Shown piece after piece: positions 34,652-53,321 of a stretch of 64,000 nt of DNA. Numbering within the stretch: the first letter of the stretch is position 1; each line of letters starts with the position of its first letter. Position numbers and translations under genes: made by a program. The notes below the pieces were generated by a model. It saw nothing but the letters and a program-made list of their open reading frames with translations, was not told where the DNA came from and made no database searches. The stretch comes from Actinocatenispora comari (GTDB taxonomy: Bacteria; Actinomycetota; Actinomycetes; Mycobacteriales; Micromonosporaceae): the NCBI RefSeq assembly GCF_017312725.1, contig NZ_BOPO01000073.1, positions 1-64,000 on the forward strand, read 5' to 3'.

Positions 34652-34816
34652 GATCACTCCTCCGACCGCGCGACGGCGGTCCGGTCGAGGCGTGTCATAC
34701 GGACGACACACACTGGTCGAAGAGGACTATGGCGTGCTGCCGACAGCGCTGACAAGATTGATCCGCTTCCGGTTCCGGACACCTGGCAGGAACACGACAA
34801 CCTGGGGAGGCCGACG

Positions 34817-35806: not shown

Positions 35807-35828
35807 CCGCACGACCGGGCCTCCGGGG

Positions 35829-35844
35829 CTCCGTCATTCGGCGG
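35829..35844 (+). promoter_or_regulatory. Shared 16-bp motif, copy A
   Basis: CTCCGTCATTCGGCGG, matching the consensus CTMCGTCRWTYGGCGG found four times in the window. It lies at -51 to -36 from the GTG start of the LuxR response-regulator gene (35880). CAGCAT (35868-35873) 6 nt before that GTG can be a -10, making the site upstream of and next to the -35 position. Confidence 0.6.
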
Positions 35845-35879
35845 ATGACAGGGCGGCGGGAGGGGCGCAGCATCGGTGC

Positions 35880-36551
35880 GTGGACCCGATCCGGGTACTG
35901 CTCGTCGACGACCAGCAGCTGTTCGCCGAGGCACTGGCGGTGTGGTTGGCGCGCCAGGCCGGATTCGAGGTCGTCGGGGCGGTGCACACCGTCGCCGCGG
36001 CCCGGGCGCTGCTCGCGACCGAGCGGGTCGACGTGCAGCTGGTCGACCTGGAGCTCGGCGCCGAGTCGGGGATCGAACTGCTCGACCACGCCCGCGAACG
36101 GTACCCGCTGCTGCGCTCGGTGATCCTCAGCGCGTCGCGGTCGCCGGCGACGGTCGCCACCGCGGTACGGCACGGCGCGGTGTCCTGGCTGTCCAAGACC
36201 GCCGACGGCGACACCCTGCTGCAGGTGCTGCGCGGGGTGCTGCGGGACGAGTCCTGGATCCCGCCGGACCTGCTCGCCGGGCTGCTGCACACGCTGGCCG
36301 AACCGGCCAGCAGCCCGGTGCTCGACCGCCTGACGGTACGCGAACGCCAGGTGTTGCAGTGCCTGGTGGACGGGCTGACCCGGGCGCAGATCGCCGAGTC
36401 GCTGATCATGTCGCCGAACACGGTCCGTACCCACACCCAGAACATGCTGGCGAAGCTGCCGGCGCACTCGGCGCTGGAGGCGGTGTCGGTCGCGTTGCGC
36501 AGCGGGATGCGGCCGGACGGGCTCGGCGCCGGGCAGGTATCCGCCGAATGA
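35880..36551 (+). CDS. LuxR/NarL-type response regulator
   Basis: Protein of 223 aa with an N-terminal receiver domain (acidic pair Asp10-Asp11 in LLVDDQQLF, phospho-acceptor Asp56 in LVDLELG, Lys in WLSKTADGD) and a C-terminal LuxR helix-turn-helix (LTVRERQVLQCLVDGLTRAQ, PNTVRTHTQNMLAKL). GTG at 35880 is chosen; no ribosome site is seen, but a -10-like CAGCAT 6 nt upstream fits a leaderless transcript. The gene is bracketed by two copies of the 16-bp motif, in opposite orientation. No cognate kinase gene adjoins it. It is a good candidate for the regulator of the glycan locus. Confidence 0.9.
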   Translation: MDPIRVLLVDDQQLFAEALAVWLARQAGFEVVGAVHTVAAARALLATERVDVQLVDLELGAESGIELLDHARERYPLLRSVILSASRSPATVATAVRHGAVSWLSKTADGDTLLQVLRGVLRDESWIPPDLLAGLLHTLAEPASSPVLDRLTVRERQVLQCLVDGLTRAQIAESLIMSPNTVRTHTQNMLAKLPAHSALEAVSVALRSGMRPDGLGAGQVSAE

Positions 36552-36556
36552 CGTAG
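36541..36556 (-). promoter_or_regulatory. Shared 16-bp motif, copy B
   Basis: On the minus strand CTACGTCATTCGGCGG, identical to copy A except for one base. It overlaps the last codons of the LuxR gene and lies 80 nt upstream of the GT4 gene start at 36636, in front of a plausible -10 TACGGT (36602-36607). Confidence 0.6.
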
Positions 36557-36635
36557 CGCCGGCTGGTCAGTTCGCGAGGGTCGCCGCGCGGTCGCCCGGG
36601 CTACGGTGTGTGGACCCGGCCGCGGGAGGGCCGTG

Positions 36636-37877
36636 ATGGGACGCAGGATCCGGGTCGCCACCGTGATCACCCGGCTGTCCGCGGGTGCCGGCGGGGTCGC
36701 GCTGCGCGGCGCGCTCGCCCTCGACCCGGACCGGTTCGCGGTGACCGTGGTGACCGGCGCCGCCGCGCTGTTCCCGGGGCGGTCGCCGCGGCCCGGGATC
36801 CTGGTCGGCGACGCCGCGCTCGCTTCGGCGCCGGCGGGCGACCTGCTGGCCCGCGCCGCCGCCGGCGGCCTCGCGGTACGGCGGATCCCGTCACTGCTGC
36901 CGCAACCGGCGCCGGCGGCGGACGCGCTGGCGTTCGCCGCGCTGGTACGGCTGCTCGCCGACGTCGACGTGGTGCACACGCACTGCGCGAAGGCCGGCGC
37001 GCTGGGCCGTGCCGCCGGAGTACGGCGGGGCGTGCCGCGGGTCGTGCACACCCTGCACGGCCTGCCCTGGCACGACGACCAGCCCGCGTGGCGCCGGTTC
37101 GCGTACCGCCGGATCGAGCGCCGGTTGGGCCGCCGCACCGACGCGTTCCTCGCCGTGGGCGGGTCGGTACGCCGGGCGGCGATCCGGCACGGGATCGCCG
37201 ATCCGTCCCGGATCCGGACGATCTGGCCGGCCGTCGACCCCGCTCCGGCACCGACCGACCGGGCCGCGGCGCGGCGCCGGCTGGGGCTGCCCCCGGACGT
37301 TCCGGTGGTCGGCACCGTCGGCCGGATCGACACCCAGAAGGCACCGCTGGACTGGGTCGACGCGGTCGCCGCGAGCGGGCCGTCGACCTGGGGGGTGTGG
37401 GTCGGGGACGGACCGCTGCGCGCGGCGCTGCGCGACCGGGTCGCCCGGCGCGGGCTCACCGACCGGGTCCGGCTGGTCGGTCACCGCGAGGACGTACCGG
37501 CGCTGCTGCCCGCGTTCGACGTGTTCGCGCTGGCCAGCCGGTACGAGGGGATGCCGTGCGTGCTGGTCGAGGCGATGCGGGCCGAAGTGCCGGTGGTCGC
37601 CACCGCGGTGGACGCGGTACCGGAGCTGGTGCTGCCGGAGGTGACCGGGCTGCTGGTACCGCCGGGCCGGCCGGACCTGCTGGGCCGGGCGGCGGCGCGA
37701 CTGCTCGCCGACCGGGACACCGCGGGCCGGCTCGCCGATGCCGCCGCGGCGGCGGTGGACGGCCGGTACGACCCGGCGGTGCTGGGCGAGATCCTCACCG
37801 CCACCTACACCGGACCGGACCGCGCCACGCCGATGACCGGCGAGCGGTCCGGCCCCGGCGACCTGGCGATCCCGTGA
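36636..37877 (+). CDS. Glycosyltransferase family 4 enzyme
   Basis: Retaining GT-B glycosyltransferase, 413 aa. N-terminal acceptor domain (RVATVITRLSAGAGGVALRG, HTHCAKAGALGRAAG, VVHTLHGLPWH) and C-terminal nucleotide-sugar domain (VVGTVGRIDTQKAPL, VWVGDGPLRAAL, SRYEGMPCVLVEAMRAEVPV with the E-x7-E motif). GGAGGG precedes ATG. The next gene overlaps it by GTGA. It lies beside the glycan operon but on the opposite strand; cytoplasmic, probably membrane-associated, adding a sugar to a lipid-linked intermediate. Confidence 0.9.
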   Translation: MGRRIRVATVITRLSAGAGGVALRGALALDPDRFAVTVVTGAAALFPGRSPRPGILVGDAALASAPAGDLLARAAAGGLAVRRIPSLLPQPAPAADALAFAALVRLLADVDVVHTHCAKAGALGRAAGVRRGVPRVVHTLHGLPWHDDQPAWRRFAYRRIERRLGRRTDAFLAVGGSVRRAAIRHGIADPSRIRTIWPAVDPAPAPTDRAAARRRLGLPPDVPVVGTVGRIDTQKAPLDWVDAVAASGPSTWGVWVGDGPLRAALRDRVARRGLTDRVRLVGHREDVPALLPAFDVFALASRYEGMPCVLVEAMRAEVPVVATAVDAVPELVLPEVTGLLVPPGRPDLLGRAAARLLADRDTAGRLADAAAAAVDGRYDPAVLGEILTATYTGPDRATPMTGERSGPGDLAIP

Positions 37878-38770
37878 CCGGTCCGCTGGCTGCCACCCTG
37901 GTCGAGGCGCACCGGCTCGGCCTGCGGATCTGGCTGGAGGCGGATCTGGTCCGGCCCTGGCAGGACGGGCCGGCGCGGCTGCACGCCGCCCTGCGCACCG
38001 TGCGCGGCCTGGCCCGGGAGCCGGGCGTGGTCGGGGTCAAGTTCACCGAGGCGCTCGGCTACGCGGACGGGTTGACCGTTCCGGGGCGAATCAGCCGGTT
38101 CCTCACCGAGGTCGGGGACGGGCTGGCGGGCGCCGCACCGGGTCGGCTGCGGCTGCTCGACCTCGCCGTACCGGAGCTGTCCTGCCTGCCCGACGATCCG
38201 ACCCGGCCGCACCTGGCCACGGTCGCCGCGGCCCGGCTGCGCGGCCGGTACCCGCAGCTGGCGCTCGACAACGTGCACGACTACCTGCGGTTGGGCGCGG
38301 CGGAGGTGGCGCAGGTCGCGACGCTGCCGCGGTCGGCCGCCACCTACGCGGGGTGGGGAGTCGGCGACGACGTCGCGCAGCGGTCGGCCTGGTCGGCGAC
38401 GGTCCGGTACTGGGGGCGCCTGACCCGGCTGTACGCGCGTGCCGATCTGACCCACCCGGGCGACGCGTCCGGCGACGCGGGCGCCGCCGCGCGACGGCTG
38501 CACACCGCGGTCGACGTCCCGCTGCGGGCCGGCGCCGAGGCGGTCGACGCCTGGACCTGGCGGCGCCCGTACCAGGGTTGGGTGGCGCGGCTGGCCGACC
38601 CGGGGCCGCGCACCAACCCGCTGTGGGATGGTCTGGTGGCCCGGCACGCCGCGGGCGCCCGGCTGCTGACCCACCTCGATCCGGCCGCACCGGAACGCAC
38701 CGTCCGGTCGGATCTGGCGATGATCGCGACCGCCTGTACCGACGTGTACCTCGCGGTCGGCGTCGACTGA
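37874..38770 (+). CDS. Unknown protein, TIM-barrel-like
   Basis: Protein of 298 aa that I do not recognise. The GTG start overlaps the GT4 stop (GTGA), so both are made together. No signal peptide or membrane segment. Strand-like segments ending in acidic or polar residues (RIWLEADLVRPW, VVGVKFTEALGY, LRLLDLAVPEL, LALDNVHDYLRL, AEAVDAWTWRRPYQGW) alternate with helices, as in an eight-stranded barrel of glycoside hydrolases. Glu and Asp at strand ends could be catalytic. It may be a cytoplasmic partner of the GT4 enzyme. The fold suggestion is inference from pattern only. Confidence 0.7.
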   Translation: MTGPLAATLVEAHRLGLRIWLEADLVRPWQDGPARLHAALRTVRGLAREPGVVGVKFTEALGYADGLTVPGRISRFLTEVGDGLAGAAPGRLRLLDLAVPELSCLPDDPTRPHLATVAAARLRGRYPQLALDNVHDYLRLGAAEVAQVATLPRSAATYAGWGVGDDVAQRSAWSATVRYWGRLTRLYARADLTHPGDASGDAGAAARRLHTAVDVPLRAGAEAVDAWTWRRPYQGWVARLADPGPRTNPLWDGLVARHAAGARLLTHLDPAAPERTVRSDLAMIATACTDVYLAVGVD

Positions 38771-39018
38771 GAGGTTCCGGTCCGGCGGGCGCCGCTGGCG
38801 GGAGCTGCGAGCCGCCCGTTGCGCCGGTTTGGTCGCCGGACCGGCCTCGGACGAACGGACACCGGGCGTGGTACTGACGGTTCGTTCGCGGGCCGGCCGT
38901 CCATTACTCGCCAGGCACCCCGGACGCGACGGAGATTGTGTGCTGTCGTGGGACGAGATCTTCCGGATCGCGGTCCGCGCCACCCAGGCGTGGCCGGCGG
39001 TCCGACGGGGGGAACATC
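38771..39018. other. Non-coding gap before the DHp-like gene
   Basis: A stretch of 248 bp with no gene I can support and no copy of the 16-bp motif. A few inverted hexamers (CGAACG near 38850 and CGTTCG-like GTTCGTTCG near 38878) may be part of an operator for the DHp-like protein/response-regulator pair. Confidence 0.3.
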
Positions 39019-39222
39019 ATGACCGGCGACCAGCAGCCCGTTCCGGCACCGCGCCGTCCCGCCGAGCCGGCGGGACCGCACCGGCGGATCGGGCCCGACG
39101 TACGGCACGAGATCGCCACCATCATGCTGCTGACCCGGGCGGTGACCGATGCCGTCGACATCGGCCCGGACAGCCGGGCCCGGCTCGACCAGCTGCTGTC
39201 GCCGGGTGGTGCCCGACCATGA
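39019..39222 (+). CDS. 67-aa protein with a histidine-kinase DHp-like helix
   Basis: Small protein whose second half (IGPDVRHEIATIMLL, then TRAVTDAVDIGPDSRARLDQLL) resembles the phosphoacceptor helix hairpin of histidine kinases, with His30 in the RHE context of an H-box. There is no ATP-binding domain. A GGGGGG stretch lies a few bases before the ATG, and the stop overlaps the start of the next gene (ATGA), a LuxR response regulator. It could be a truncated kinase, a phosphotransfer protein or a dimerisation partner of that regulator. The coding call rests on the ribosome site, overlap and H-box-like sequence. Confidence 0.6.
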   Translation: MTGDQQPVPAPRRPAEPAGPHRRIGPDVRHEIATIMLLTRAVTDAVDIGPDSRARLDQLLSPGGARP

Positions 39223-40001
39223 ACGTCGCGGCGACGACCACCCTCCCGGCGGGGACCGGGCTGCGCCCCGCCACCGGCCGCACCGTGGCGGCGACGCTCG
39301 GCCCCGTGCCCGCACCGGAACCCGCCGGCACCGGCTCGGCCCGGACCGGCGCCCGGGTGCTGGTGTGCGACGACCACCTGGTCTTCGCCGAGTCGCTGGC
39401 GATGGTCTTCGTGGACGCCGGGTACCGGGTGACCGCGGTGACCCGCAGCATCGACGAGGTGCTCGGTGTGCTGCGGGCGTGCCCGGTCGACGTGTGCGTG
39501 CTCGACGTCGGGCTGGGGCTCGGGGACCGGTTCGAGCGGCTCGCCGAGCTGCGCGCGACCGCGCCGGCGACGCACCTGGTCCTGCTGGGCGGGCGGGGGC
39601 CGCGGCAGTGGGCGCCGGACGCGCTCGCCGCCGGGGCGTCCGGCCTGGTGGACAAGGGTCAGCACGTCGCGGCGATCCTGGACACGGTGGCCCGGGTGTG
39701 CGCGGGCGACACGGTCGTCGGCCCGCCGTACCGGCAGCTGCCGCGGCGCGGTGCGGTACCGGACCTGTTCCGGCTGGCCGGGTTCCTGACCCCGCGCGAG
39801 CGCGAGGTGCTGTGCCGGCTGGTACGCGGTGAGCACACCGCGGCGCTGGCCCGGTCGATGGGCGTCACCTCGGCGACCGCGCGCTGTCACGTGCAGAACG
39901 TGCTGACCAAGCTGGGCGCGCACACCCGGCTGGAGGCCGTCACGGCCGCCGTCCGCTGCGGCCTGATCGACGCCGCGACCGGCGAGTGGCTCGCCGGCTG
40001 A
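39219..40001 (+). CDS. LuxR-type response regulator
   Basis: Protein of 260 aa. A disordered Ala/Thr/Pro-rich N-terminus of about 45 residues precedes a receiver domain (VLVCDDHLVFAESLA, phospho-acceptor Asp in VCVLDVGLG, Lys in GLVDKGQHV) and a LuxR helix-turn-helix (LTPREREVLCRLVRGEHTAA, SATARCHVQNVLTKLG). Its ATG overlaps the stop of the DHp-like small protein. The position next to the large minus-strand glycan operon, with which it converges, suggests a regulatory role there. Confidence 0.88.
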   Translation: MNVAATTTLPAGTGLRPATGRTVAATLGPVPAPEPAGTGSARTGARVLVCDDHLVFAESLAMVFVDAGYRVTAVTRSIDEVLGVLRACPVDVCVLDVGLGLGDRFERLAELRATAPATHLVLLGGRGPRQWAPDALAAGASGLVDKGQHVAAILDTVARVCAGDTVVGPPYRQLPRRGAVPDLFRLAGFLTPREREVLCRLVRGEHTAALARSMGVTSATARCHVQNVLTKLGAHTRLEAVTAAVRCGLIDAATGEWLAG

Positions 40002-40053
40002 GGCCGTGTCGCGTCGATCGTGGCGCGGTGCTCCCGGGCGAGCGACGCCACGC

Positions 40054-41391
40054 TCAGCTGGCCGGGTCCAGTGTGGACGGTGCGGCGACCGGTTCCGGTG
40101 GGCGGCGGGTCGGGGAGACCCAGCGGCCGGTGGAGCGCGCCACGAAGGCCCGCGGCAGGGCGTAGAGCGTCACCGCCGCGTCGACCACCCGCAGCAGCAC
40201 GAAGAACGGCAGGAACAGCAGGTACCGGGGGCGCCGCTGCAGCCCGGCGACCAGCAGCGTGGTCAGGTAGTCGGGCAGCAGCACGCCGACCGCGAGCGTC
40301 TCCAGCCGCACGTAGCCGTGCACCGTGGTGTACACGCTGGACAGTCCGGGCAGATCGGCCACCGCCGGTGCCAGCTCCGGCACCGCGAGCAGCAGGAACA
40401 GCAGCGGCAGCAACAGGAACAGCAGGCTGCTGGAGACCAGCTCCAGCAGGGTCAGGGCGAGTACCACGGAGAACAGGTTGCGCCGCAGCCCGTGCCGGCG
40501 CACCGTCTGCCACAGCCCGAGCGACCACCGGGTGGTCTGCTGGAGATAGTCGCGGAAGGTGTCCGGGTCCTGGGTGGTGGCCGCGGCGTCGAGGCGGAAC
40601 CCGACCCGGCCGAGCCGCCGCCGGTACACCTCGAAGGTCATGTTGAAGTCCTCGATCACCAGCCCCGGCGGGTTCATGTCGATCCGGGGCAGGATCTCGG
40701 TGCGGTACAGGCTGGCGAAGCCCGGCACGATGTGCGTGGCGTTGAGCGACCGCCAGGTCTGGCCGTACTTGAGCAGCCGCTGGGTCATCGTGTAGATCCG
40801 TTCCCGGTGCGCCACGATCAGCTGCCCGGTGTGCGACATCCGTCCCGGCGCCCAGTGGGTACGGGCACAGCCGGCGACGGCCACGACCGCGGGGTCGTCG
40901 AACAGCGGCAGCGCGGCCTCGAAGTAGCCGTCGGCGAGCTGGGTGTCGGCGTCCAGCAGCAGCACCGCCCGGTAGCGGCGAACCAGCCCGAACCGCCGGA
41001 TCGCGTACTGCAGCGCGCCGGCCTTGCCCAGGTTGCCCGGGGTGGCGAGGACCCGGGCGCCGCAGCGGCGGGCGATCGCGACGGTGTCGTCGGTGGAGCC
41101 GTCCGAGACCACGTGCACCGCGCCGGCCGGTACCAGCCGCCGCACCGCGGTGATCGACGCGGCCAGCACTACCGCCTCGTTGTGCGCCGGGATCAGCACC
41201 GCGACCTCGTCCAGCCCGATCGGCCCGGTACGGGGTGCGTCCGGGTCGCGCAGCAGCCGCGGCCCGGGCGCCACGTCCGGCCGGTCGTGCCGGCGCACGA
41301 ACCGGTCGTCGATCAGCCGCAGCAGGCCGATCAGGCCCCACAGGGTGAAGTTGAGGCCGAACACGAACACCAGCAGCCACCAGGGGAACAT
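40054..41391 (-). CDS. Processive-type family 2 glycosyltransferase (synthase)
   Basis: Membrane GT2 enzyme, 445 aa, similar to the PgaC/HasA/NodC group that polymerises and extrudes a polysaccharide. N-terminal helix (WWLLVFVFGLNFTLWGLI), then the GT-A domain: VAVLIPAHNEAVVL, HVVSDGSTDDT, LLLDADTQLADGY (DxD-like), LVIEDFNMTFEVYRR (ED motif) and QQTTRWSLG, which contains the Q-x-x-R-W signature of processive synthases. Three to four C-terminal helices follow. Its ATG overlaps the stop of the GH18 gene. With the deacetylases and GH18 nearby, it resembles a PNAG-type synthase module; the donor sugar is unknown. Confidence 0.9.
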   Translation of the reverse strand: MFPWWLLVFVFGLNFTLWGLIGLLRLIDDRFVRRHDRPDVAPGPRLLRDPDAPRTGPIGLDEVAVLIPAHNEAVVLAASITAVRRLVPAGAVHVVSDGSTDDTVAIARRCGARVLATPGNLGKAGALQYAIRRFGLVRRYRAVLLLDADTQLADGYFEAALPLFDDPAVVAVAGCARTHWAPGRMSHTGQLIVAHRERIYTMTQRLLKYGQTWRSLNATHIVPGFASLYRTEILPRIDMNPPGLVIEDFNMTFEVYRRRLGRVGFRLDAAATTQDPDTFRDYLQQTTRWSLGLWQTVRRHGLRRNLFSVVLALTLLELVSSSLLFLLLPLLFLLLAVPELAPAVADLPGLSSVYTTVHGYVRLETLAVGVLLPDYLTTLLVAGLQRRPRYLLFLPFFVLLRVVDAAVTLYALPRAFVARSTGRWVSPTRRPPEPVAAPSTLDPAS

Positions 41392-42434
41392 CAGTCACCT
41401 CCGCCGGCGGCGGCGCGCCAGACCGCGCCGTCGGCGCTGCCCTCGTTGAGCCAGAAGAACACCCCGGCCAGGTGGGCGGACCGGGCGAGCGCCAGCTTCG
41501 CGTCGACGCTGCGGTCGTTCTCGAACCACACCTCGTGCCGGCGGCCCCGCGCGTCCCGGTAGGAGTACCACGGCGCCTGGGCGGTGGCGTCCCAGCGCAC
41601 CGGTACGTGCCGGTCGGTGGCGGCGCGCCGCAGCGTGGCGACGCTGCGGTCGGTGCCGCGGTGGCCGACCCAGTCGTACCCGGACAGCGACATGCCGAGG
41701 ACGAGCTTGTCCGCGCCGATCGTCGCGGTCGCGTACCGCAGCACCCGGCGTACCCACGGGGTCGGCGAGATGGGGCCGGGGCCGGAGGTCTCCCAGTGGT
41801 AGTCGTAGGCCATCAGCCGGACCTGGTCGACGGCCCGGCCGAGCCGCCGGTAGTCCTGCGCGACGTTGCGCGGCGCGTACCCGGCGTCGGTGTCCTTGGC
41901 GAACAGGTCGACGCTGAGGGTACGGTCCCGCGCGTGCAGCGCGGCGGCCACCTGCCGCACCAGCGCGGTGAACGCGGCCCGGTCGCCGGCCCGCAGGTCC
42001 TCGTAGTCCAGGTCGATCCCGGCCACGTGCGGCGCCTCCGCGAGCGCGACCAGGGACCGGACGTGCCGCGCCCGGGCCGCCGGATCGTGCAGCACCCGCG
42101 ACACCGGCCGGTACGAGAAGGTGCCGTCCAGCGCGTTCGCCACGGTCGGCACGTACCGGGTGCCGGGCGGCCGGGAGCGCAGCGCCGCGGTGTCCGCGCC
42201 GGGCCGCTGCGGGACCACGGTGCCGTCCGCGGCGATCCCGTACACCCAGGGCGAGTACGTGTCGATCCGGCCGGCGTGGCCGTCCAGCCGCGCGGCGCCG
42301 AAGTTCCAGTACGGTACCGCGGCGAGCACCCCGTGCCTCCACTGTGGACGATCCTGTCCGCACCCCACGAGCAGTCCGATCAGCAGCAACCCCACCACCG
42401 CGAGCGGCGGCCATCGTCGTACCGGCCCGGTCAT
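41391..42434 (-). CDS. GH18-type glycosidase lipoprotein
   Basis: Extracytoplasmic protein of 347 aa with a lipoprotein signal (PLAVVGLLLIGLLVGCGQ; the Cys of LVGC is the lipidation site). The barrel resembles YaaH/chitinase GH18 proteins: VLAAVPYWNF, the catalytic strand VAGIDLDYEDL (D-x-D-x-E), then QVRLMAYDYHW and LVLGMSLSGYDW, ending with AGVFFWLNEGS. The acid Glu is present, so it should be active on beta-1,4 or beta-1,6 HexNAc linkages. It overlaps both neighbours by 4 nt (ATGA); tight coupling to the GT2 synthase suggests a role in trimming or releasing the polymer. Confidence 0.88.
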   Translation of the reverse strand: MTGPVRRWPPLAVVGLLLIGLLVGCGQDRPQWRHGVLAAVPYWNFGAARLDGHAGRIDTYSPWVYGIAADGTVVPQRPGADTAALRSRPPGTRYVPTVANALDGTFSYRPVSRVLHDPAARARHVRSLVALAEAPHVAGIDLDYEDLRAGDRAAFTALVRQVAAALHARDRTLSVDLFAKDTDAGYAPRNVAQDYRRLGRAVDQVRLMAYDYHWETSGPGPISPTPWVRRVLRYATATIGADKLVLGMSLSGYDWVGHRGTDRSVATLRRAATDRHVPVRWDATAQAPWYSYRDARGRRHEVWFENDRSVDAKLALARSAHLAGVFFWLNEGSADGAVWRAAAGGGD

Positions 42435-43420
42435 GGTGTGGCGAGCACCCGCCGTGCCAGCGGAACGGCGCGGTGCTCGTCGACGACGTCGCGCAGGATG
42501 GTGTCCAGGTCACGGCCCGGGACGAAGCCGACCAGCTCCCGGGCCCGCCGGCAGTCCGGCACCCGGCGCATCATGTCCTCGTACCCGTCCCCGTACGCCA
42601 CCTGGTACGGGATGCGGTCGATCGTCGAGTGCGACCCGGTCAGCGTCACCACCCGCCGGGCCAGCTCCCCGATGCTGACCTGCTCGGCGGAGCCGAGGTT
42701 GAACACGCCGCCGATCGCCGCGCGCTCGGCCAGCAGCGCGGGCAGCGCGGCGACCACGTCGGCGACGTGGCAGAAGCAGCGGATCTGGTCGCCGGTGCCG
42801 TACACGGTGAGCGGGTCACCGGCCAGCGCCTGCCCGACGAACCGCGGCACCACCATCCCGTACCGGCCGGTCTGGCGCGGGCCGACGGTGTTGAACAGCC
42901 GCACCGTCACGGCCCGCAGCCCGGCCCGGCCGTACGCGGTGACCAGCGTCTCGTCGATCGCCTTCGCCTCCGAGTACGACCAGCGGCTCTTGGTCGGCGA
43001 GCCGATGATCCGGTCGTCCTCCTCGCGCAGCCCGACCTTGTCGTTCTTGCCGTAGATCTCGCTGGTGGAGGCGAGCAGTAGCCGCACGTCGTACCGGTGC
43101 GCCGCGGCGACGACGTGCTCGGTGCCGTGCAGGTTGGTGCGCAGGCTGTCCAGGGTGCGGTCGCGGATGGTGAACGCGCCGACCGCGGCGGCCAGGTGGT
43201 AGATGGTGTCGGCGTCGAGCACCAGCCGCTCGACCAGCTCCGCGTCCAGGACCGAGCCGCGCACCAGCCGCAGGCCCGGCCGGTCGGCGACGCCGGCGAG
43301 GTTCTCCCACCGCCCGGTACTCAGGTCGTCCAGCACGGTGACCTGGTCGCCGGCGGCGAGCAGCGCCTCCGTCAGGTGCGAGCCGATGAACCCGGCGCCC
43401 CCGGTGATCAGTGTGCGCAT
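42431..43420 (-). CDS. NAD-dependent nucleotide-sugar epimerase/dehydratase
   Basis: Extended SDR, 329 aa. TLITGGAGFIGSHL (GxxGxxG), the Asp of VLDDLSTG for NAD, active-site Ser in ASTSEIYG and Tyr-Lys in SYSEAKA. The pattern fits UDP-glucose/UDP-GlcNAc 4-epimerase or related decarboxylase-like enzymes; the exact reaction cannot be read. In the operon it would supply an activated sugar, possibly a HexNAc uronic acid in concert with the dehydrogenase encoded at 48687-50036. Confidence 0.88.
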   Translation of the reverse strand: MRTLITGGAGFIGSHLTEALLAAGDQVTVLDDLSTGRWENLAGVADRPGLRLVRGSVLDAELVERLVLDADTIYHLAAAVGAFTIRDRTLDSLRTNLHGTEHVVAAAHRYDVRLLLASTSEIYGKNDKVGLREEDDRIIGSPTKSRWSYSEAKAIDETLVTAYGRAGLRAVTVRLFNTVGPRQTGRYGMVVPRFVGQALAGDPLTVYGTGDQIRCFCHVADVVAALPALLAERAAIGGVFNLGSAEQVSIGELARRVVTLTGSHSTIDRIPYQVAYGDGYEDMMRRVPDCRRARELVGFVPGRDLDTILRDVVDEHRAVPLARRVLATP

Positions 43421-43460
43421 GTCGTCCCCCCGTCGTGTCCGGCCCGCTCGCCGGGTCGTG

Positions 43461-44579
43461 TCAGCCCGTCGGCCGGCCCTGCCGGCCGGCCCGCGGGCGG
43501 GCCGCGAGCCGTTCGTACAGCGTGTCGATGCGGTCGGCGACCGCGGCCACCCCGTACCGGTCGGTGATCGCCTCGACCGGCCGGCGGTCGGTGGGTGGCG
43601 CGGCGAGGACCGCGGCGAGTTCGGCGCGCAGCCCCGCCACGGTGCCCGGTACCGGGCGGGCCTGCGGCACGTCGAGCCCGGCCAGCGCCGGGCAGGTGGT
43701 GTAGCGCACCGGCAGCCCGGCGGCGAGCGCCTCCAGCGCCGAGAGCCCGAACGTCTCCTGCTCCGAGACGGTCAGGAACACGTCCATGGCGGACAGCAGG
43801 GGCCCCACGTCGTGCCGTTCCCCGGTGAACCGGACCCGGTCGGCGATCCCGAGCTCGGCGGCCAGCGCGCGCAGCCGGGCCAGCTCGGGACCGTCGCCGA
43901 CCACGAGGAACAGCCGGCCGCCGGTCAGCAGCGGCGCGAGCGCCCGCAGTGCCAGGTCGACCCGCTTCACCGGATCCAGCCGCCCGAGCACGCCGAGCAC
44001 GACGGTGCCGGGCGGCACCCGCAGCTCGGTGCGCAGCCGGGTCCGCGCCACCGGGTCGTACCGGGACCGGTCCAGGTCGACGGCGTTGGGAATCACCGTG
44101 ATCCGCGCCGCCGGTACGCCCCACCGCACCAGCCGGTCGCGGACCGTCTCGGACACCGCGACGGTGACCTGCCCGCACCGCTCGCTGGCCAGGTACAGCG
44201 CGCGCACGCCGGCGGTCATCCGCCGCCGCTCCAGGTGCGTCTCGCCGATCGAGTGCTCGGTGGACACGATCACCGGCGTGCGGGCCAACCGGGCCGCGGC
44301 CCGGCCGTACACCTGGGCGCGGTAGAGGTGCGCGTGCACCACGTCGTAGCGGCCGGCGGCGATCAGCCGGGTCAGCCGGGGCAGCGCGGACAGCTGGGTG
44401 TTGCGCCGCATGCCGAGGTCGCGCACGCCGATCCCGGCCGCCGCCAGCCGATCCGCGACCGGCCCCGGGTTGTACAGGCTGAGCACCTCGGCGTGGTGCC
44501 GGGTGCGGGCCAGGACCGTCGGCAGCTGGAGCTCGGCCCCGCCGACGCCCAGCCCGGTGATCACGTGCAGCACCCTCAC
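43461..44579 (-). CDS. Glycosyltransferase family 4 enzyme
   Basis: GT-B retaining glycosyltransferase, 372 aa. Characteristic segments: VLHVITGLGVGGAELQL at the N-terminus, VVHAHLYRAQVYG, STEHSIGETHLERRR, VIPNAVDLDR, VLGVLGRLDPVKRVD, LVVGDGPELARL and SEQETFGLSALEALAAG (E-x7-E). GTG start overlaps the stop of the deacetylase gene (GTGA). Cytoplasmic; likely transfers a sugar onto the lipid-linked product of the sugar transferase. Confidence 0.92.
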   Translation of the reverse strand: MRVLHVITGLGVGGAELQLPTVLARTRHHAEVLSLYNPGPVADRLAAAGIGVRDLGMRRNTQLSALPRLTRLIAAGRYDVVHAHLYRAQVYGRAAARLARTPVIVSTEHSIGETHLERRRMTAGVRALYLASERCGQVTVAVSETVRDRLVRWGVPAARITVIPNAVDLDRSRYDPVARTRLRTELRVPPGTVVLGVLGRLDPVKRVDLALRALAPLLTGGRLFLVVGDGPELARLRALAAELGIADRVRFTGERHDVGPLLSAMDVFLTVSEQETFGLSALEALAAGLPVRYTTCPALAGLDVPQARPVPGTVAGLRAELAAVLAAPPTDRRPVEAITDRYGVAAVADRIDTLYERLAARPRAGRQGRPTG

Positions 44580-45328
44580 GGTCGGCCTCCGGCGGCCAGC
44601 CGGGCCCGGTAGAGCAGCCGCTTGCCGGTCAGTCGCAGCGCGCCGTCGCGCTCGCCGACGTAGATCCGCGGTACCGCGGCCACGCCGAGCGTCGAGCGCG
44701 GTGCGTCCACGGCGCAGGCGTACCGGTAGCCGGCGGCGGTGACCGCGGCGCGCGCCCCGGCGTCCATCGAGCCGTACGGGTAGCAGAAGCCGTCGACGGG
44801 CCGGTCGATCACCGCGGCCAGCCGGTCCCGGCTGCCGGCGACCTCGTCGCGCAGCCGCGCACCGGCCAGCCCGGCCAGCGGTACGTGCCGGGCGCCGTGC
44901 GCGCCGATCTCCCAGCCGGCGCCGGCGAGCGCGGCCAGATCCGGGGCGTCCAGCAGCGCCAGCTCGCCCCCGTCCCAGTCGTTGACCGCGCCGATCCGGT
45001 CGGCGACCACGAACACGGTGGCGGTACAGCCGAACCGGCGCATCGCCGGCAGCGCGTGCCGGACCACCCCGGCGTACCCGTCGTCGAACGTGATGCCCAC
45101 CAGCCCGGCGCCACGCCCGGCCCGGCGGGCGGCGAGCAGCTGCCCGACACCGACACCGCGCAGCCCGAGCCGGCGCAGCGTGGCCAGCTGCGCGGCGAAC
45201 CGGCGGGGTGACACCGCCAGCCGGTGCGGGTCGTCGGCCAGCACGTCGACGGTGTGGTACATCAGCACCAGCGGCACCTCCCGCCACCGCCACGGTGCCG
45301 CCAGCCGGGCCCGCTCGATCACCGCCAT
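44576..45328 (-). CDS. Polysaccharide deacetylase (NodB domain)
   Basis: Carbohydrate esterase family 4 enzyme, 250 aa. The first metal motif is ITFDDGYAG and the second is GAHGARHVPLAGL (H-x3-H); PLVLMYHTV starts the fold and FCYPYGSMD gives the later loop. GAGGGGAGG precedes ATG. No signal peptide, so it acts inside, or it may be exported by another route; in related capsule operons such enzymes de-N-acetylate HexNAc residues. It overlaps the next gene by GTGA and the previous by 10 nt. Confidence 0.9.
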   Translation of the reverse strand: MAVIERARLAAPWRWREVPLVLMYHTVDVLADDPHRLAVSPRRFAAQLATLRRLGLRGVGVGQLLAARRAGRGAGLVGITFDDGYAGVVRHALPAMRRFGCTATVFVVADRIGAVNDWDGGELALLDAPDLAALAGAGWEIGAHGARHVPLAGLAGARLRDEVAGSRDRLAAVIDRPVDGFCYPYGSMDAGARAAVTAAGYRYACAVDAPRSTLGVAAVPRIYVGERDGALRLTGKRLLYRARLAAGGRP

Positions 45329-46161
45329 GGCCGCCCGCCTCCCCTCGCCGCCCGCACGGCGCGACCCGCAGTCGCCACGACACCGCGACGAAGCACCGCC
45401 GCGGTACGGCCGATCGCGGTCACCGCGGCACGTCCGGCCGCTCCCGCCGGCACGGCGCAGCCGGCCGCCGCGCCGGCCGCCGTCGCCGCGAGGATCCGAA
45501 GGTCGCGACGAAGCGTCCAGCGTTCGATGTACTCGTTGTCGGCGACGACCCGGGTGATCAGCGGCGTGTCGCCGCACAGTCCGCGCAGCTGGGCGGTACC
45601 GGTGATCCCGGCCGGCATCCGGTACCGGCCCGGGTAGCCCGGCACGGTGGCGGCGAACAGCTCGGCGAAGTGCGGCCGTTCCGGCCGCGGCCCGACCAGC
45701 GACATCTCCCCGCGCAGCACGTTGACCAGTTGCGGCAGCTCGTCCAGGTGGCTGCGGCGCAGCGCCACGCCGAGCCCGGTGACCGCGCCCGGCGGTACCG
45801 TCCAGCGCACGTCGGCGTCCGGGTCCGGCGCCACCGTGCGCAGCTTGAGCAGGACGAACGTGGCCGCGCCGGCGGTGAGCCGGACCTGGCGGAACAGTAC
45901 CGGCCGACCGTCCAGGCAGCGGATCGCCAGCGCCAGCAGCGCGACCACCGGCGCCGAAAGGATCAGCAGCGGTACCCCCAACGCCAGGTCGAGCGCCCGC
46001 TTGCGCCGGAACCGCAGCACCGGAGCGGACGCGTGTCGCGCCACGCCGACGGCCCGGCCACCGGGCGGCAGGCTCGATGCCGGCCACCACGCGGCGGCGC
46101 GTCGGACCGGTGCGGCGGCCCCGGAGCCGGTCGCCGGATGCGGGGTGGTCGGGGCGCTCAT
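45319..46161 (-). CDS. Polyprenyl-phosphate sugar transferase (WcaJ/EpsL-like)
   Basis: Initiating glycosyl-1-phosphate transferase, 280 aa. One membrane segment (LDLALGVPLLILSAPVVALLALA) precedes the conserved catalytic region: GRPVLFRQVRLT, FVLLKLRTV, LRRSHLDELPQLVNVLRGEM and LVGPRPERPHF. It lacks the large N-terminal membrane domain of WbaP/WcaJ and so corresponds to the small monotopic type. It would place the first sugar-phosphate on undecaprenyl phosphate. Its start overlaps the stop of the FAD oxidoreductase gene (ATGA). The C-terminal tail is Ala/Arg-rich. Confidence 0.92.
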   Translation of the reverse strand: MSAPTTPHPATGSGAAAPVRRAAAWWPASSLPPGGRAVGVARHASAPVLRFRRKRALDLALGVPLLILSAPVVALLALAIRCLDGRPVLFRQVRLTAGAATFVLLKLRTVAPDPDADVRWTVPPGAVTGLGVALRRSHLDELPQLVNVLRGEMSLVGPRPERPHFAELFAATVPGYPGRYRMPAGITGTAQLRGLCGDTPLITRVVADNEYIERWTLRRDLRILAATAAGAAAGCAVPAGAAGRAAVTAIGRTAAVLRRGVVATAGRAVRAARGGGRPWR

Positions 46162-47384
46162 CCGGCCGCCCGGGCCAGCGACCGACCGGTCGTCACGGTG
46201 CCGGTCAGGTGGTGCGCGATCCGGCGCGCCGCAAAGTCGCAGCCGTGCACGAACCGCATCACCGGGCCGAACGAGTTCGCCACCGCCGGCCCGGTGAAGT
46301 ACAGGCCGGGAACCGAGGACTGGAACACCCGGTCGACCGCGGGCGCACCGTCCAGGGTGGCGACGGCGGCGGCGAGCCGCTCGTCCAGGAAAGCCAGCCG
46401 GGACACGTCCGGCCGGAACCCGGTGGCGGCGATGACGTGCTCGGTGCTGATGCGCACCGGACCGGCGCCGTCGCGCAGGGTCAGCCGGAGCGAGTCGGCG
46501 CCGGGCTCGACGGCGATCAGCTCGTGGTCGGTGAGCACCGGCAGCCTGCCCTCCACCCGCGGGCGCAGCCAGTACGCGCCGGCCGGGCCCAGCGCGGTCC
46601 GGGCGATCCGGGCCCGGCGGCGGGCCGGCAGCCGGTGCAGCAGATCCGGCCGGTTGGAGTACAGCAGCGTGGTCCAGCCGGAGCCCAGCGGCGCCTCCGG
46701 CTCCCGCAGCCGGACCCGCAGCGAGCGCCGGGCGCGCAGCGGATCGCCGTTCCACACGACGCGCGGTGCGCGGACCACCACCCGTACGGTGGCGCCGGCC
46801 TCGGCGGCGAGCGCCGCGGTCTCCAGCGCCGCCTGGCCGCCGCCCAGAACGGTCAGGTCGGTACCGGCGAAGCGGGACAAGTCGGTGTGCGCCGACGAGT
46901 GCGTGACGAGGGTGTCCGGCAGGTCGGCGAGCAGCGGCGGGATCCGGTCGAAGTGCTCGACGCCGACCGCGACCACCACCCGGCGGGCCAGCAGCGTCTC
47001 ACCGTCGTCGAGCGTCACCTCGAACTGGGCGCCCACCGAGTCGATCCGGCGTACCAGCGTCTCGGTCAGGTCGGGCACCTGGGTGTGCTGGAACCAGCCG
47101 CCGTACGCGGTGAAGTCGGCCAGCCGCACCGGTTTCCCGTACGGCACGTACTGCTCGCCGCGGTGCGCGCAGTAGGCGGCCAGCGTCGCGGCGCCCGCCG
47201 GGTCGGACAGGTTCGACGCGTACGGCTGGGATTTCAGCTGCATCCCGGCCGGCATCGCCGAGCGCCACAGCGCCATCGGCCGGCCGAACACCCGGACCGT
47301 CAGGCCGGTGTCGCGCAGGTGCGCGGCGAGCGACAGCCCGTACGGCCCGGCGCCCACGATGGCCACGTCGATCGTCCTTGCCAT
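46158..47384 (-). CDS. FAD/NAD(P)-binding oxidoreductase
   Basis: Flavoprotein of 408 aa with FAD motif VAIVGAGPYGLSLAAHL, NAD(P) motif LTVLGGGQAALETAAL, and HVIATGFRPD-like ATG motif (seen as VIAATGFRPDVSRL). It resembles N-hydroxylating or Baeyer-Villiger-like monooxygenases and the oxidoreductases found in glycan and siderophore clusters. It overlaps both neighbours by ATGA. Its role in a polysaccharide operon is not clear: oxidation of an amino sugar or of a modifying group is possible (inference). Confidence 0.85.
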   Translation of the reverse strand: MARTIDVAIVGAGPYGLSLAAHLRDTGLTVRVFGRPMALWRSAMPAGMQLKSQPYASNLSDPAGAATLAAYCAHRGEQYVPYGKPVRLADFTAYGGWFQHTQVPDLTETLVRRIDSVGAQFEVTLDDGETLLARRVVVAVGVEHFDRIPPLLADLPDTLVTHSSAHTDLSRFAGTDLTVLGGGQAALETAALAAEAGATVRVVVRAPRVVWNGDPLRARRSLRVRLREPEAPLGSGWTTLLYSNRPDLLHRLPARRRARIARTALGPAGAYWLRPRVEGRLPVLTDHELIAVEPGADSLRLTLRDGAGPVRISTEHVIAATGFRPDVSRLAFLDERLAAAVATLDGAPAVDRVFQSSVPGLYFTGPAVANSFGPVMRFVHGCDFAARRIAHHLTGTVTTGRSLARAAG

Positions 47385-48676
47385 CAGCCCGTTCCTCCCG
47401 CTTCGATCGGTATCGGCGGGGCCGATCGGGCCGGCCGCCGGGGTGCGGTGCGTGGCCCGGACCGGGCCGGCCGGGGTGGCAGCACCGACCCGGTCGGGCG
47501 CCGCCGCGCGAACGGACGATGCGCGGCGCGCCACCCGGTGCGCAGGCACATCAGGCCGAACGGGGCCAGGTCGTCGGCTGCGAACCACGCGGTCTCGTCG
47601 ATGCCGCGCAGGCTGCCGAGCCAGGCCCGCACGCCCAGCTCACCGCGCCGCAGGTAGCCCAGCGCGGCGAGGGTGTCGTAGTTCTCCACCACGAACCGGC
47701 GGCCGGCGACCTGCCCGGACTCCGGTACCGGTCGGCCGGTGAGGTCCAGGTGCGCGGCCCGCGCCACGTCCACCCCGGCGGCGGTGCGGAACAGCCGGAA
47801 CTGCGCGCCGATGCGCGGATTGAAGTCCAGCAACCGGAACCGGCCGTCGCGCGCGTCCCGGCGCAGGTCGCAGTCCAGGATCCCGCGGTAGCCCAGGCGG
47901 GACAGCAGCGCCGCCATCTCGCCGGCGAGTACCGGCTCCGGCACGCACTCGCCGAGGCTGGTCAGCCCGGCGTGCGGCGGGTACGAGCGGTGCTTGCGGC
48001 CGGTGAACGCGGGCCGGCAGACCGAGTCGGCGTCGCAGTAGCCGTGGAAGAACCAGTCGCTGCCCGGCAGGTACTCCTGCAGCAGCAGCGGCACGCCGGC
48101 CGCGTACGCCGCGGCCAGCGCGGCCGCGTCCCAGACGACGGTGGTGCTGCGCAGCCCGCCGGTGCGGCGCCAGGGCGCGGCCAGCTTCGCCACCACCGGA
48201 TAGCCGACCCGCTCGGCGAACTCCCGCGCCAGCACCGGATCGTCGGTCTCGACCGAGTCGACCGTGGGCAACCCGAGATCGCGGCCGAGCGCCGCGAGGC
48301 TCGCCTTGCCGGCCAGCCGCCGGGGCAGCGCCGCCGGCTGCGCGGGGAACGAGAACCACCGCCGCAGCACCGATCCGTGTTCGGCGAGCAGGATCGCGCC
48401 CGCGTCGTCGGTGGGGATCAGCACCGATCGCCGACCGATCCGCTCGGCGACCCGGGCCAGCGCGGCCAGCACCCGGTACGGCTGGTCCGGATCGGGCAAC
48501 CAGCGCAACCGGCCGCGCAGGTACCTCGACCGCGCCGCCGGGGTGAGCGGGTCCTCGCACACCGCGTACACCTCGACGCCGGCGCGGCCCAGGCTGCGGA
48601 TCACGCCGAGACCGCCGTGGTGGAACACGTTGCGGTCCAGCTTCAGCACCACCGCCGGAACGTCCTGGTCGAGCAT
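47384..48676 (-). CDS. ATP-grasp carboxylate-amine ligase
   Basis: Protein of 430 aa of the ATP-grasp superfamily. The N-terminal pre-ATP-grasp fold (AVVLKLDRNVFHHGGLGVIR) is followed by the ATP-binding region: VVAKLAAPW with the nucleotide Lys, LLLQEYLPGSDWF, and the metal-binding Asp and Asn of FRLLDFNPRIGAQF. A Pro/Arg-rich tail of about 45 residues has no clear role. ATP-grasp enzymes join a carboxylate to an amine. In an operon with a HexNAc dehydrogenase it might amidate a uronic acid or add an amino acid to it (inference). Confidence 0.88.
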   Translation of the reverse strand: MLDQDVPAVVLKLDRNVFHHGGLGVIRSLGRAGVEVYAVCEDPLTPAARSRYLRGRLRWLPDPDQPYRVLAALARVAERIGRRSVLIPTDDAGAILLAEHGSVLRRWFSFPAQPAALPRRLAGKASLAALGRDLGLPTVDSVETDDPVLAREFAERVGYPVVAKLAAPWRRTGGLRSTTVVWDAAALAAAYAAGVPLLLQEYLPGSDWFFHGYCDADSVCRPAFTGRKHRSYPPHAGLTSLGECVPEPVLAGEMAALLSRLGYRGILDCDLRRDARDGRFRLLDFNPRIGAQFRLFRTAAGVDVARAAHLDLTGRPVPESGQVAGRRFVVENYDTLAALGYLRRGELGVRAWLGSLRGIDETAWFAADDLAPFGLMCLRTGWRAAHRPFARRRPTGSVLPPRPARSGPRTAPRRPARSAPPIPIEAGGTG

Positions 48677-48686
48677 CGTCGCTCCC

Positions 48687-50036
48687 CTAGACGATCTGCC
48701 GGTGCGGGGCGAGGTCGAACCGGTACGTCGCGTCCAGCACCCGCGGGCAGTCGGCGGCCCAGCCGTAGTCGACGCCCGGATGCACGGTGTGGATCAGCGC
48801 CAGGTCCCAGTCGGCGCCCTGCGGGTCGGTCTCGCCGGACAGCCGGGTGCCGTCCGGCAGCGTGCAGTCGGGCACCAGCGGGTCGTGGTAGTGCACCTGC
48901 GCACCGCGCCGGGCCAGCTCGGCGAGGATGTCCAGCGCCGACGAGCCGCGCAGGTCCCGTACCCCCGGCTTGTAGCTGACGCCGACCACCAGGACCCGGG
49001 CGCCGCGCAGCGATCCGCCGGTGTCGGCGAGCAGCTCCACCGCGCGCGCCACCACCCGCCGCGGGCGCGCCGCGATCGCGGTCATCGCCTGCTCGATCAG
49101 CGGTGCCGGGTGCGCCGCGGTACGCAGCTGCCAGAGCAGGTAGTGCGGGTCGCACGGGATGCAGTGGCCGCCGACCCCCGGCCCGGGGAAGCAGGCCAGG
49201 AACCCGTACGGCTTGGTCGCCGCCGCCGTGGTCACCTCGATCGGATCCAGCGCCAGGTGACCGCAGATGTCGGCGATCTCGTTCGCCAGCGCCAGGTTCA
49301 CCGCGCGGTAGACGTTCTCGTACAGCTTCGCGAGCTCGGCGGCCTCCGGCGTGGAGACCGCGTACACCGCGTCGGTCAGGTACCCGATCAGGCGCGCCGC
49401 CCGCTCGGTGCACCGTGGTGTCTCGCCGCCGACCAGCCGCGGCGTCTCGCGCTGCCGGTGCGCCGGGACGCCCGGGTCGATCCGCTCCGGGCTGAACGCC
49501 ACGCAGACGTCCACGCCGACCCGCAGTCCCTTGCGCTGCAACGGGTCGATCAGCATCTCCCGGGTGGTACCGACGTAGCTGGTCGAGGTCAGCACGATGG
49601 TCTGGCCGGCGCGGGCATGCTGGACCACCGCGGTGCACGCCGCCCGCAGCGCGGTGGTATCCGGGACCCGGTGCCGGTCCACCGGCGTCGGTACGCAGAC
49701 CACCACGGCGTCCACATCGGACAGCAGCGCCGGATCGTCGGTCAGCCGCAGCCCACCGGCCGCGAGCGCGTCCGCCAGCGCGGCACGGTCGTCGTCGGGC
49801 AGATCCACCGCGCCGGTCCGGATCGCGGCCAGCCGTTCGGCGCTGACGTCCACGCCGATCCCCGGCACGCCCCGCGCGTACAGTCCCAGCGCGGTGGGCA
49901 GGCCGACGTAGCCGAGCCCCACGACGCCCACCGACAGCGGTTCGGTGCCGGGCCGCGCCGCGCTGCGGTGCAGCAGTCGCGACCTGACGTCGTCCAGCGG
50001 GCCGTTGACTGCCAGCGCGAGTTCCAACCCGGCCAT
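48687..50036 (-). CDS. UDP-N-acetyl-hexosamine dehydrogenase (WecC/WbpA type)
   Basis: Nucleotide-sugar 6-dehydrogenase of 449 aa, converting a UDP-HexNAc into the uronic acid by two NAD+-dependent steps. SVGVVGLGYVGLPTALGL is the NAD motif; the catalytic Cys is in GPGVGGHCIPCDP, the HCIP form typical of WecC/WbpA rather than of UDP-glucose dehydrogenase; central KLYENVYRAVN and C-terminal VGVSYKPGVRDLRGSS complete the family pattern. An extra 37 residues precede the Rossmann fold. It is the first gene of the operon, downstream of the divergent region with motif copies C and D. Confidence 0.9.
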   Translation of the reverse strand: MAGLELALAVNGPLDDVRSRLLHRSAARPGTEPLSVGVVGLGYVGLPTALGLYARGVPGIGVDVSAERLAAIRTGAVDLPDDDRAALADALAAGGLRLTDDPALLSDVDAVVVCVPTPVDRHRVPDTTALRAACTAVVQHARAGQTIVLTSTSYVGTTREMLIDPLQRKGLRVGVDVCVAFSPERIDPGVPAHRQRETPRLVGGETPRCTERAARLIGYLTDAVYAVSTPEAAELAKLYENVYRAVNLALANEIADICGHLALDPIEVTTAAATKPYGFLACFPGPGVGGHCIPCDPHYLLWQLRTAAHPAPLIEQAMTAIAARPRRVVARAVELLADTGGSLRGARVLVVGVSYKPGVRDLRGSSALDILAELARRGAQVHYHDPLVPDCTLPDGTRLSGETDPQGADWDLALIHTVHPGVDYGWAADCPRVLDATYRFDLAPHRQIV

Positions 50037-50183
50037 GGCGACACCACCTCGTGTCCCTCGGGCGGCCCGGCGGGACGCGTCGACGTCCGGCCGAGCCCGG
50101 TGCACCGCCGGCTGCCGGCGGCCCTGCGTGCACCCTAGGTCGCCGCGGTGCCCGCGGTCTCCGGGCGATGCGCGTAGCGGGCC

Positions 50184-50199
50184 CTACGTCGATTGGCGG
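50184..50199 (+). promoter_or_regulatory. Shared 16-bp motif, copy C
   Basis: CTACGTCGATTGGCGG, in the divergent region, about 60 bp upstream of the probable operon transcription start on the minus strand. It matches the consensus fully. Confidence 0.6.
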
Positions 50200-50327
50200 A
50201 CCGGGCGGCCGACACGGCGCCGGCGGCTGGTCGCGAGGCGCGTGCCGGACGGCCGATCCGGGCTGCCGATCCGGGCCGCCGGCCGGACCGGTTCCGCTCG
50301 CCGGTCGAACCGCTGGCGTACCGGCCG

Positions 50328-50343
50328 CTACGTCGTTTGGCGG
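50328..50343 (+). promoter_or_regulatory. Shared 16-bp motif, copy D
   Basis: CTACGTCGTTTGGCGG at -51 to -36 relative to the ATG at 50379, the same distance as copy A has to its GTG. It lies directly before the -35 position of the TAGTGT promoter. Confidence 0.65.
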
Positions 50344-50366
50344 GGGCGCGGCTAGGCCGATCGCCC

Positions 50367-50372
50367 TAGTGT
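50367..50372 (+). promoter_or_regulatory. -10 box of a leaderless deacetylase transcript
   Basis: TAGTGT followed by 6 nt (GAGGCG) and ATG at 50379. The interval is too short for a leader with a ribosome site, so a leaderless mRNA is likely. Confidence 0.5.
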
Positions 50373-50378
50373 GAGGCG

Positions 50379-51770: not shown

Positions 51771-51778
51771 TGCGGTTC

Positions 51779-51810
51779 GGCCGGTCCGGCGGCCGACCGC
51801 CGGACCGGCC
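51779..51810. terminator. Bidirectional hairpin terminator
   Basis: GGCCGGTCCGGCGG (51779-51792) and CCGCCGGACCGGCC (51797-51810) pair perfectly over 14 bp with a 4-nt loop, between the convergent deacetylase and arsM genes. It separates the glycan locus from the arsenic island. Confidence 0.85.
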
Positions 51811-51852
51811 CCGGGGAACGGGCGACGCGGCATCGCGGCCCGACGACGACGG

Positions 51853-52695: not shown

Positions 52696-52729
52696 GGTGT
52701 GCTCCTTCGGCTGGCTGGGCTGTGGTGGT

Positions 52730-52873: not shown

Positions 52874-52907
52874 GATGCCCTCGCTGGATAGATGAACGTC
52901 TAAGCAG

Positions 52908-52939
52908 AGCTTGCACCATGATTAGCCATCCGTCAAGAT
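52908..52939. promoter_or_regulatory. Face-to-face promoters between arsR1 and the Cys-rich gene
   Basis: Plus strand: TTGCAC (52911-52916), 17-nt spacer, CAAGAT (52934-52939), then 6 nt to the arsR1 ATG, giving a leaderless transcript. Minus strand: TTGACG (52936-52931), 17-nt spacer, CAAGCT (52913-52908), then about 34 nt to the small gene. The two promoters overlap almost entirely, so one bound ArsR could shut off both. Confidence 0.55.
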
Positions 52940-53317: not shown

Positions 53318-53321
53318 CCCG

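Follow-up and report, generated by a model that had tools for sequence, protein, structure and literature searches.

What does a short motif mean that recurs at four promoters among the glycan genes of Actinocatenispora comari, and which regulator, if any, reads it? The window, the whole stretch of DNA that was analysed, is 64,000 bp long, and the genome scanned with it is a draft (7,964,335 bp, 151 contigs, 96.5% complete). Within the window a LuxR-class gene, luxR, and the glycan genes around it carry four copies of the motif, designated A to D. Based on the comparisons described below we propose, at a probability of roughly three in four, that the four sites are activating operators of LuxR1, the NarL/FixJ-type response regulator encoded by luxR at 35880..36551 (+), with a single operator at luxR itself and tandem operators at the glycan promoters.

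Four sites in the locus and in the genus

A first-pass annotation had reported four exact copies of CTMCGTCRWTYGGCGG, and all their coordinates and strands are as it gave them. The same four copies are the only zero-mismatch matches in the genome, so that exact copies are not scattered outside the locus, and base composition predicts 0.14 such matches per genome and 0.001 per window, figures that are flattering, since the consensus was derived from these very copies. Two further places in the genome match with one mismatch (C6:11073 and C82:37110); the 421 bases around each were read and neither is counted as a site. Allowing up to two mismatches the genome holds 123 matches versus 92 for the reversed pattern, and with up to three the window shows no enrichment, holding 14 matches where 15.6 are expected. 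As the consensus was fitted post hoc and the within-window count is weak, the case has to rest on related genomes.

The repeated unit, announced as 16 bp, is better described as an imperfect inverted repeat of 18 bp, of the form CTMCGTC-N4-GRCGGAK at this locus and ATCCtGCA-NN-TGacGkAG in general. Site A (35829..35846, +), the dyad CTCCGTC-ATTC-GGCGGAT, is the candidate single, proximal operator of luxR, and site D (50328..50345, +) is the proximal dyad of the deacetylase promoter; both are centred at -42.5 relative to their start codons, GTG (35880) for A and ATG (50379) for D. Their exact copies lie at -51 to -36 from these start codons with -10-like hexamers at -12 to -7, as had been noticed. 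The hexamer of luxR, CAGCAT (35868..35873, +), places the predicted transcription start at the start codon and is a poor -10 taken alone; that of the deacetylase gene is TAGTGT (50367..50372, +), with TAACGT and TAGCGT in two relatives. TANNNT has been described as a -10 element (PMC3898074), and for D a hexamer of this kind ending 6 bp before the start is seen in three species.

Sites B and C, neither assigned a strand, are distal dyads. Site B (36539..36556), ATCCGCCGAATGACGTAG, had been listed with A as flanking luxR, and the positions hold; however, it overlaps the last codons at the 3' end of luxR and is part of the promoter of the downstream glycosyltransferase gene. Site C (50184..50201) had been placed with D in a divergent region, which is correct, and can be specified as facing the nine-gene operon. 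In addition, B, C and D are each accompanied by a weaker dyad that the earlier list lacks, most surely B and C.

All four sites are retained, with 0–2 mismatches, at orthologous places in two genomes of the genus (G002 and G003) that share the gene order luxR, glycosyltransferase, RR2 (a second regulator), nine-gene operon and deacetylase, and a genome of another genus (G056) keeps divergent versions at two or three promoters. Identity across the three species extends to 52 of 59 columns in the reported sites as compared with 224 of 360 elsewhere in the intergenic stretches, a count that includes only the 5 intergenic bases of B and leaves out the -10 hexamers. The companion dyads stand at 45 of 54, a value not independent of selection since they were partly noticed through their conservation. 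The flanks of the four copies are unrelated. A. rupis (G001) has luxR and RR2 together, with a site-A-like dyad at -53 (14.1 bits) and, downstream of luxR, a further copy with one mismatch. In the 70 kb of its sequence examined around luxR the operon did not turn up; of the operon genes only the epimerase was sought genome-wide, in case the operon had moved, and it was found 34 kb away. Separately, G002 has an extra one-mismatch copy 65 bp upstream of site A (L061 9100-9115) that is not at that place in G003. An early matrix built from the Actinocatenispora sites matched the neighbourhoods of G011, G023, G024 and G038 no more than permuted controls did, except for two matches after luxR in G011 and G023, and was abandoned.

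Promoter grammar in other genera

Scanning genome contigs yielded 80 loci, a number that fetched genomes raised to 89, each carrying an orthologue or relative of luxR. Three of the 89 are duplicates (L176, L178 and L180, repeating L168, L153 and L165) and were removed from most counts; they are still present in the 0/523 control count, the 9/27 clusters and the 100–115 motif-discovery controls given below. One truncated locus (L135) was skipped and another (L121) is short after luxR. Before the duplicates were removed the corresponding counts were 62/88 for the site, 43/62 versus 0/248 for its -10, 60 cores and 49 pairs of 88, and 62/87 versus 0/164 for regions above 15 bits. Start codons of the orthologues were set by tblastn ends, and offsets of -59 to -74 are partly artefacts.

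Motif discovery upstream of luxR, in 26 of the 27 clusters formed at 75% identity, returned one motif with a likelihood of 141.8, versus 72–73 for shuffled sequence and 100–115 for genuine sequence from nearby (four sets). Control regions taken within the luxR1 coding sequence reach 231–235, which reflects the homology of the gene; the fair comparison is therefore with the four upstream offsets. The matrix was trained on 22 of the 26 upstream regions (L092, L061, L171 and L172 were dropped), 20 of which gave sites in the first run. Across 18 bp it correlates with its reverse complement at r = 0.72, a partial symmetry of the kind that would be expected if a NarL-type protein bound as a dimer. 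When refitted on these 20 sites from other genera it ranked A, B, C and D at 2, 4, 5 and 43 among the 127,962 positions of the window. Three fresh runs excluding both Actinocatenispora regions, L061 and L092, over the same positions ranked A at 1, 1 and 4 and B at 2, 3 and 6. A and B, which stay within the top six in all four runs, are thus found from other genera alone, while C and D depend more on resembling A and B and on being conserved within the genus.

In 60 of 85 luxR1 loci (57/82 outside the genus; 11/26 clusters) the 20-mer of the site begins at -54 to -52 relative to a start codon in frame, and in 42 of these 60 promoters [TC]ANNNT follows at -12 to -7, versus none of 240 at control offsets, close relatives included. 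The geometry of A and D is thus common to promoters of other families.

The promoter that follows luxR has a different arrangement. A GTAG core occurs after luxR in 58 of 85 loci, and TANNNT was found 36–56 bp beyond it in 47 of the 58, in every case at 43–46 bp, whereas control windows yielded no such pair (0/523). The spacing from distal site to -10 is 45 bp for B, 46 for C and 44 for the operon promoter of G056. Between the distal site and the -10 the profile of post-luxR promoters shows a second conserved stretch. With the luxR-promoter matrix its score is highest at a distance of 24 bp from the distal site (z ~4), an offset that ranks first in 6 of the 8 clustered loci from other genera, and the proximal dyad so defined ends 21 bp before the -10, in the same place as A and D. 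These two features indicate that B and C, and with less certainty D, resemble tandem dyads spaced by 24–25 bp with the proximal one at about -42.5, luxR carrying the proximal dyad alone. The activator-like geometry suggested earlier thus gains from fixed spacings of 21 and 43–46 bp between site and -10. B-type sites were recovered both by counting gapped words and by anchoring on GTAG and the -10; motif discovery on the luxR1 downstream regions alone was weak (84.2 versus 66–74 shuffled) and was not relied upon.

In the window, the proximal dyad of the B promoter (CTGGTCAGTTCGCGAGGG) lies at 36563..36580, its centre 24 bp from that of B, with 15/18 columns identical in the three species, and is followed by the -10 TACGGT of the glycosyltransferase gene (36602..36607, +). 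That of the C promoter (minus strand TACGCGCATCGCCCGGAG) lies at 50159..50176, 25 bp from C centre to centre (17/18 columns), before the -10 TAGGGT of the nine-gene operon (50132..50137, -). For the D promoter the distal candidate (GTCGAACCGCTGGCGTAC, 50304..50321), with its centre 24 bp from that of D and 13/18 columns identical, is the weakest of the set; the three companions have no assigned strand. A composite scan trained on other genera (the 8 clustered loci and four hand-picked ones, L100, L128, L140 and L146) chose B as the best place in the window (score 28.3), and in G056 it scored the operon promoter at 26.2 and a place before a nucleotide-sugar dehydrogenase at 20.7. In a Rugosimonospora locus (L154) a tandem-dyad promoter scoring 45.3 follows luxR, and a second one, scoring 40.1, lies about 1 kb upstream of it (8945, minus strand).

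Which regulator reads the sites

LuxR1 combines an N-terminal receiver (PF00072, 3.8e-18) with a C-terminal GerE helix-turn-helix (PF00196, 7.4e-17), and it matches the solved structures of VraR (5hev) and NarL (1a04) in this fold over nearly its whole length. The phosphorylation residues D10, D11, D56 and K106 are invariant in 7 orthologues, residue 84 being Ser or Thr. The candidate partner RR2 (39219..40001, +), also NarL-type, is co-inherited with luxR. A site above 15 bits lies upstream of luxR1 in 61 of 84 loci, as against 0 of 25 for RR2 and 0 of 158 control stretches, which favours LuxR1 as the binder by way of self-control. The suggestion that the LuxR protein controls the motif therefore survives as the simplest reading, qualified by the nearly constant presence of RR2. 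The dedicated regulon proposed with it is supported, since neither outcome named beforehand as refuting it was seen: all four exact copies lie in this locus, and the sites persist in those relatives found to retain the genes.

The sequences themselves show the sites, their conservation, partial symmetry and spacing, and their linkage to luxR1 across families; from these patterns we infer LuxR1 to be the binder, its dimeric state, activation rather than repression, and the signal. A LuxR1 dimer would bind the imperfect 18-bp repeat. At its own promoter one dimer would sit just upstream of RNA polymerase, centred at about -42.5 and 21 bp before the -10, a class-II-like position, and would switch on a leaderless luxR transcript, so that LuxR1 would raise its own level by positive feedback. 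Each glycan promoter would instead take up a pair of dimers on tandem sites, a strong distal one at about -66 and a weaker proximal one at -42.5, 24–25 bp centre to centre, and together they would turn on the glycosyltransferase gene and the nine-gene operon, and probably also the deacetylase gene.

Several observations weigh against this proposal. The site at -53 is missing in 25 of 85 luxR1 loci and 15 of 26 clusters, among them loci of Catenulispora, Streptomyces, Longispora and Rugosimonospora, three of four Frankia-type loci and G056, and the counts are not independent, because many Actinomadura loci are close relatives. The B-type spacing is found in 9 of 27 clusters, and two of the eight clustered loci (L165 and L173) lack the peak at +24. 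The first matrix had been seeded by one that included L061 and L092, and the three fresh runs free of the genus ranked C at 57, 19 and 11 and D at 92, 30 and 174, which slightly lowers our confidence. In the composite scan of the window C scored 8.5, no better than a chance match at 8.8, and the distal partner of D was not recovered. Finally, the binder is not settled, because RR2 is almost always co-inherited with luxR1.

This last point underlies the rival that survives best, which we regard as possible though clearly the less probable: LuxR1 and RR2 would bind the tandem target sites jointly, as a heterodimer or as two stacked regulators, with LuxR1 alone at its own promoter, much as BldM acts with and without WhiI. 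Among 300 Micromonosporaceae genomes luxR1 (E to 1e-33) was found in 14, RR2 (E to 1e-30) in 13 and both in 12. Of the three unpaired genomes, two do contain the missing partner as a copy split over two frames (luxR1 in G055, RR2 in G056), while in G261 nothing closer than a 33% RR2-like gene was seen. Behind the chosen loci RR2 is present in 13 of 14 genomes, three of which seem to be G011, G058 and G121 again. In the Streptomyces precedent, a source drawn on here in part, BldM homodimers bind one palindromic 16-bp site and the BldM-WhiI heterodimer a related, half-changed and hence half-palindromic one (PMC4125116). The distal sites here are asymmetric as well, but only suggestively so because the search itself required the GTAG half, and none of the 25 RR2 upstream regions holds a site above 15 bits. 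The RR2 receiver reads LLGG or LLAG in G000, G002 and G003 versus LLTG in A. rupis and three other genera, so that a conserved receiver Thr seems to have been lost within the genus.

Repression is an unlikely alternative, in which the regulator would block the glycan genes until phosphorylated or released. NarL-type regulators are able to repress, and the activator geometry was deduced from sequence; however, an operator over the -10 or the start is expected for plain repression, and here the sites lie upstream of the -10 at fixed spacings.

Less likely still is that RR2 alone, or a TrmB-LuxR fusion regulator encoded directly upstream of luxR (34727-35806; a TrmB-type helix-turn-helix, PF01978 at 1.2e-10, joined to a C-terminal LuxR-like one, PF00196 below cut-off), is the binder. 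Both carry helix-turn-helix domains and are encoded beside the sites, but the lack of any site above 15 bits upstream of RR2 speaks against RR2 alone, and as a relative of the fusion occurs in just 2 of 89 luxR1 loci it is an improbable binder. The fusion is present in G002 and was not found in the fetched neighbourhood of G003, which nevertheless keeps the sites.

That the copies are a functionless product of chance or of recent duplication of promoter DNA within the locus is very improbable, for although the consensus was fitted afterwards and the window is not enriched at three mismatches, the flanks are unrelated, the sites are conserved between species, and matrices derived from other genera pick out A and B.

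Compared with known systems, LuxR1 resembles BldM and BldM-WhiI, Streptomyces orphan regulators of the NarL type, in being an actinobacterial response regulator that may work as one of a pair. The BldM site TCACcCgnncGgGTGA is by inspection unlike ATCCtGCAnnTGacGkAG, so that these promoters do not carry the site of the BldM regulon as the portion of the source consulted gives it, and BldM targets are described there as two groups of developmental genes (PMC4125116), whereas the exact sites here are confined to one glycan locus. The dormancy regulators DevR and OsdR belong to the same neighbourhood of solved structures, DevR (3c3w) being the second match of LuxR1. In the part of the OsdR report drawn upon, OsdR sites were found by motif search upstream of orthologues, one of them upstream of osdR itself, as here, but the OsdR site is AGGGCCGATCGGCCCT, 27 transcription units are predicted in S. 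coelicolor, and OsdR is paired with the kinase OsdK (PMC5069765). The LuxR1 locus has no HisKA_3 kinase: of 43 matches to this family genome-wide (other kinase families were not searched) none lies in 35–52 kb of the window, and the sole one on the contig is at 60725-60928, 9 kb beyond the deacetylase gene. VraR and NarL share the receiver and GerE fold with LuxR1 but differ in organism, sites and targets. RcsB, VpsT and CsgD exemplify LuxR-class control of an extracellular polymer, polysaccharide or biofilm, but match LuxR1 only distantly in sequence; of the 25 NCBIfam models shown, not one attains its cut-off. Regulators of this class, and inverted-repeat operators subject to autoregulation, are already known; in the titles and abstracts of the open-access literature searched for this regulator we found nothing on the regulator itself, the operator sequence, the regulon or the two-dyad spacing rule.

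The glycan genes and the wider family

The B promoter would drive a GT4-type glycosyltransferase gene (36636..37877, +). The nine-gene glycan operon, putative as a unit (40054..50036, -), encodes a nucleotide-sugar dehydrogenase, a weak ATP-grasp-like protein, an FAD oxidoreductase, a sugar transferase, a deacetylase, a GT4, an epimerase, a GH18 and a PgaC-like GT2, and the divergent polysaccharide deacetylase gene (50379..51770, +) is predicted to be leaderless. The presence in this one operon, at 40054-45391, of the PgaC-like GT2, itself below the model cut-off, GH18 and a polysaccharide deacetylase hints at an amino-sugar polymer. A polysaccharide cluster for the sporangium matrix has been described in Actinoplanes (PMC12691653, consulted in part). 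Also in the luxR module is a 296-aa protein (37882-38769), without a Pfam match at 0.001, that is kept in G002 (81%), G003 (70%) and G061 (40%). Beside the deacetylase gene, at 51853-56809, lies an arsenic-like cluster of a methyltransferase, ArsR-like repressors and an ACR3-like transporter, named from reading the translations. An Rfam search of 35000-52000 gave one sub-threshold match, which was rejected.

The genes behind B-type promoters vary among loci: GT4 here, CapD-like (PF02719) in L094 and L115, weakly Wzz-like genes below the Pfam cut-off in L165 and L168, and in L093 a gene with no Pfam match. A bolder and decidedly tentative extension is that the LuxR1-RR2 pair may be a widespread actinobacterial switch for envelope glycans, in which a homodimer at the -42.5 dyad would drive luxR1 and a LuxR1-RR2 complex would read the 24-bp tandem dyads. 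If so, glycan genes of quite different kinds (GT4, nucleotide-sugar dehydrogenase, Wzz-like, CapD-like) would fire only after feedback has raised LuxR1.

The proposal supplies a concrete operator, a fixed-spacing promoter grammar and target genes for a widespread actinobacterial regulator, so that its regulon may be read from sequence in many genomes, and it groups the glycan genes of Actinocatenispora into a single unit under common control. The locus would also provide a simple test of whether joint action of paired response regulators is common outside Streptomyces.

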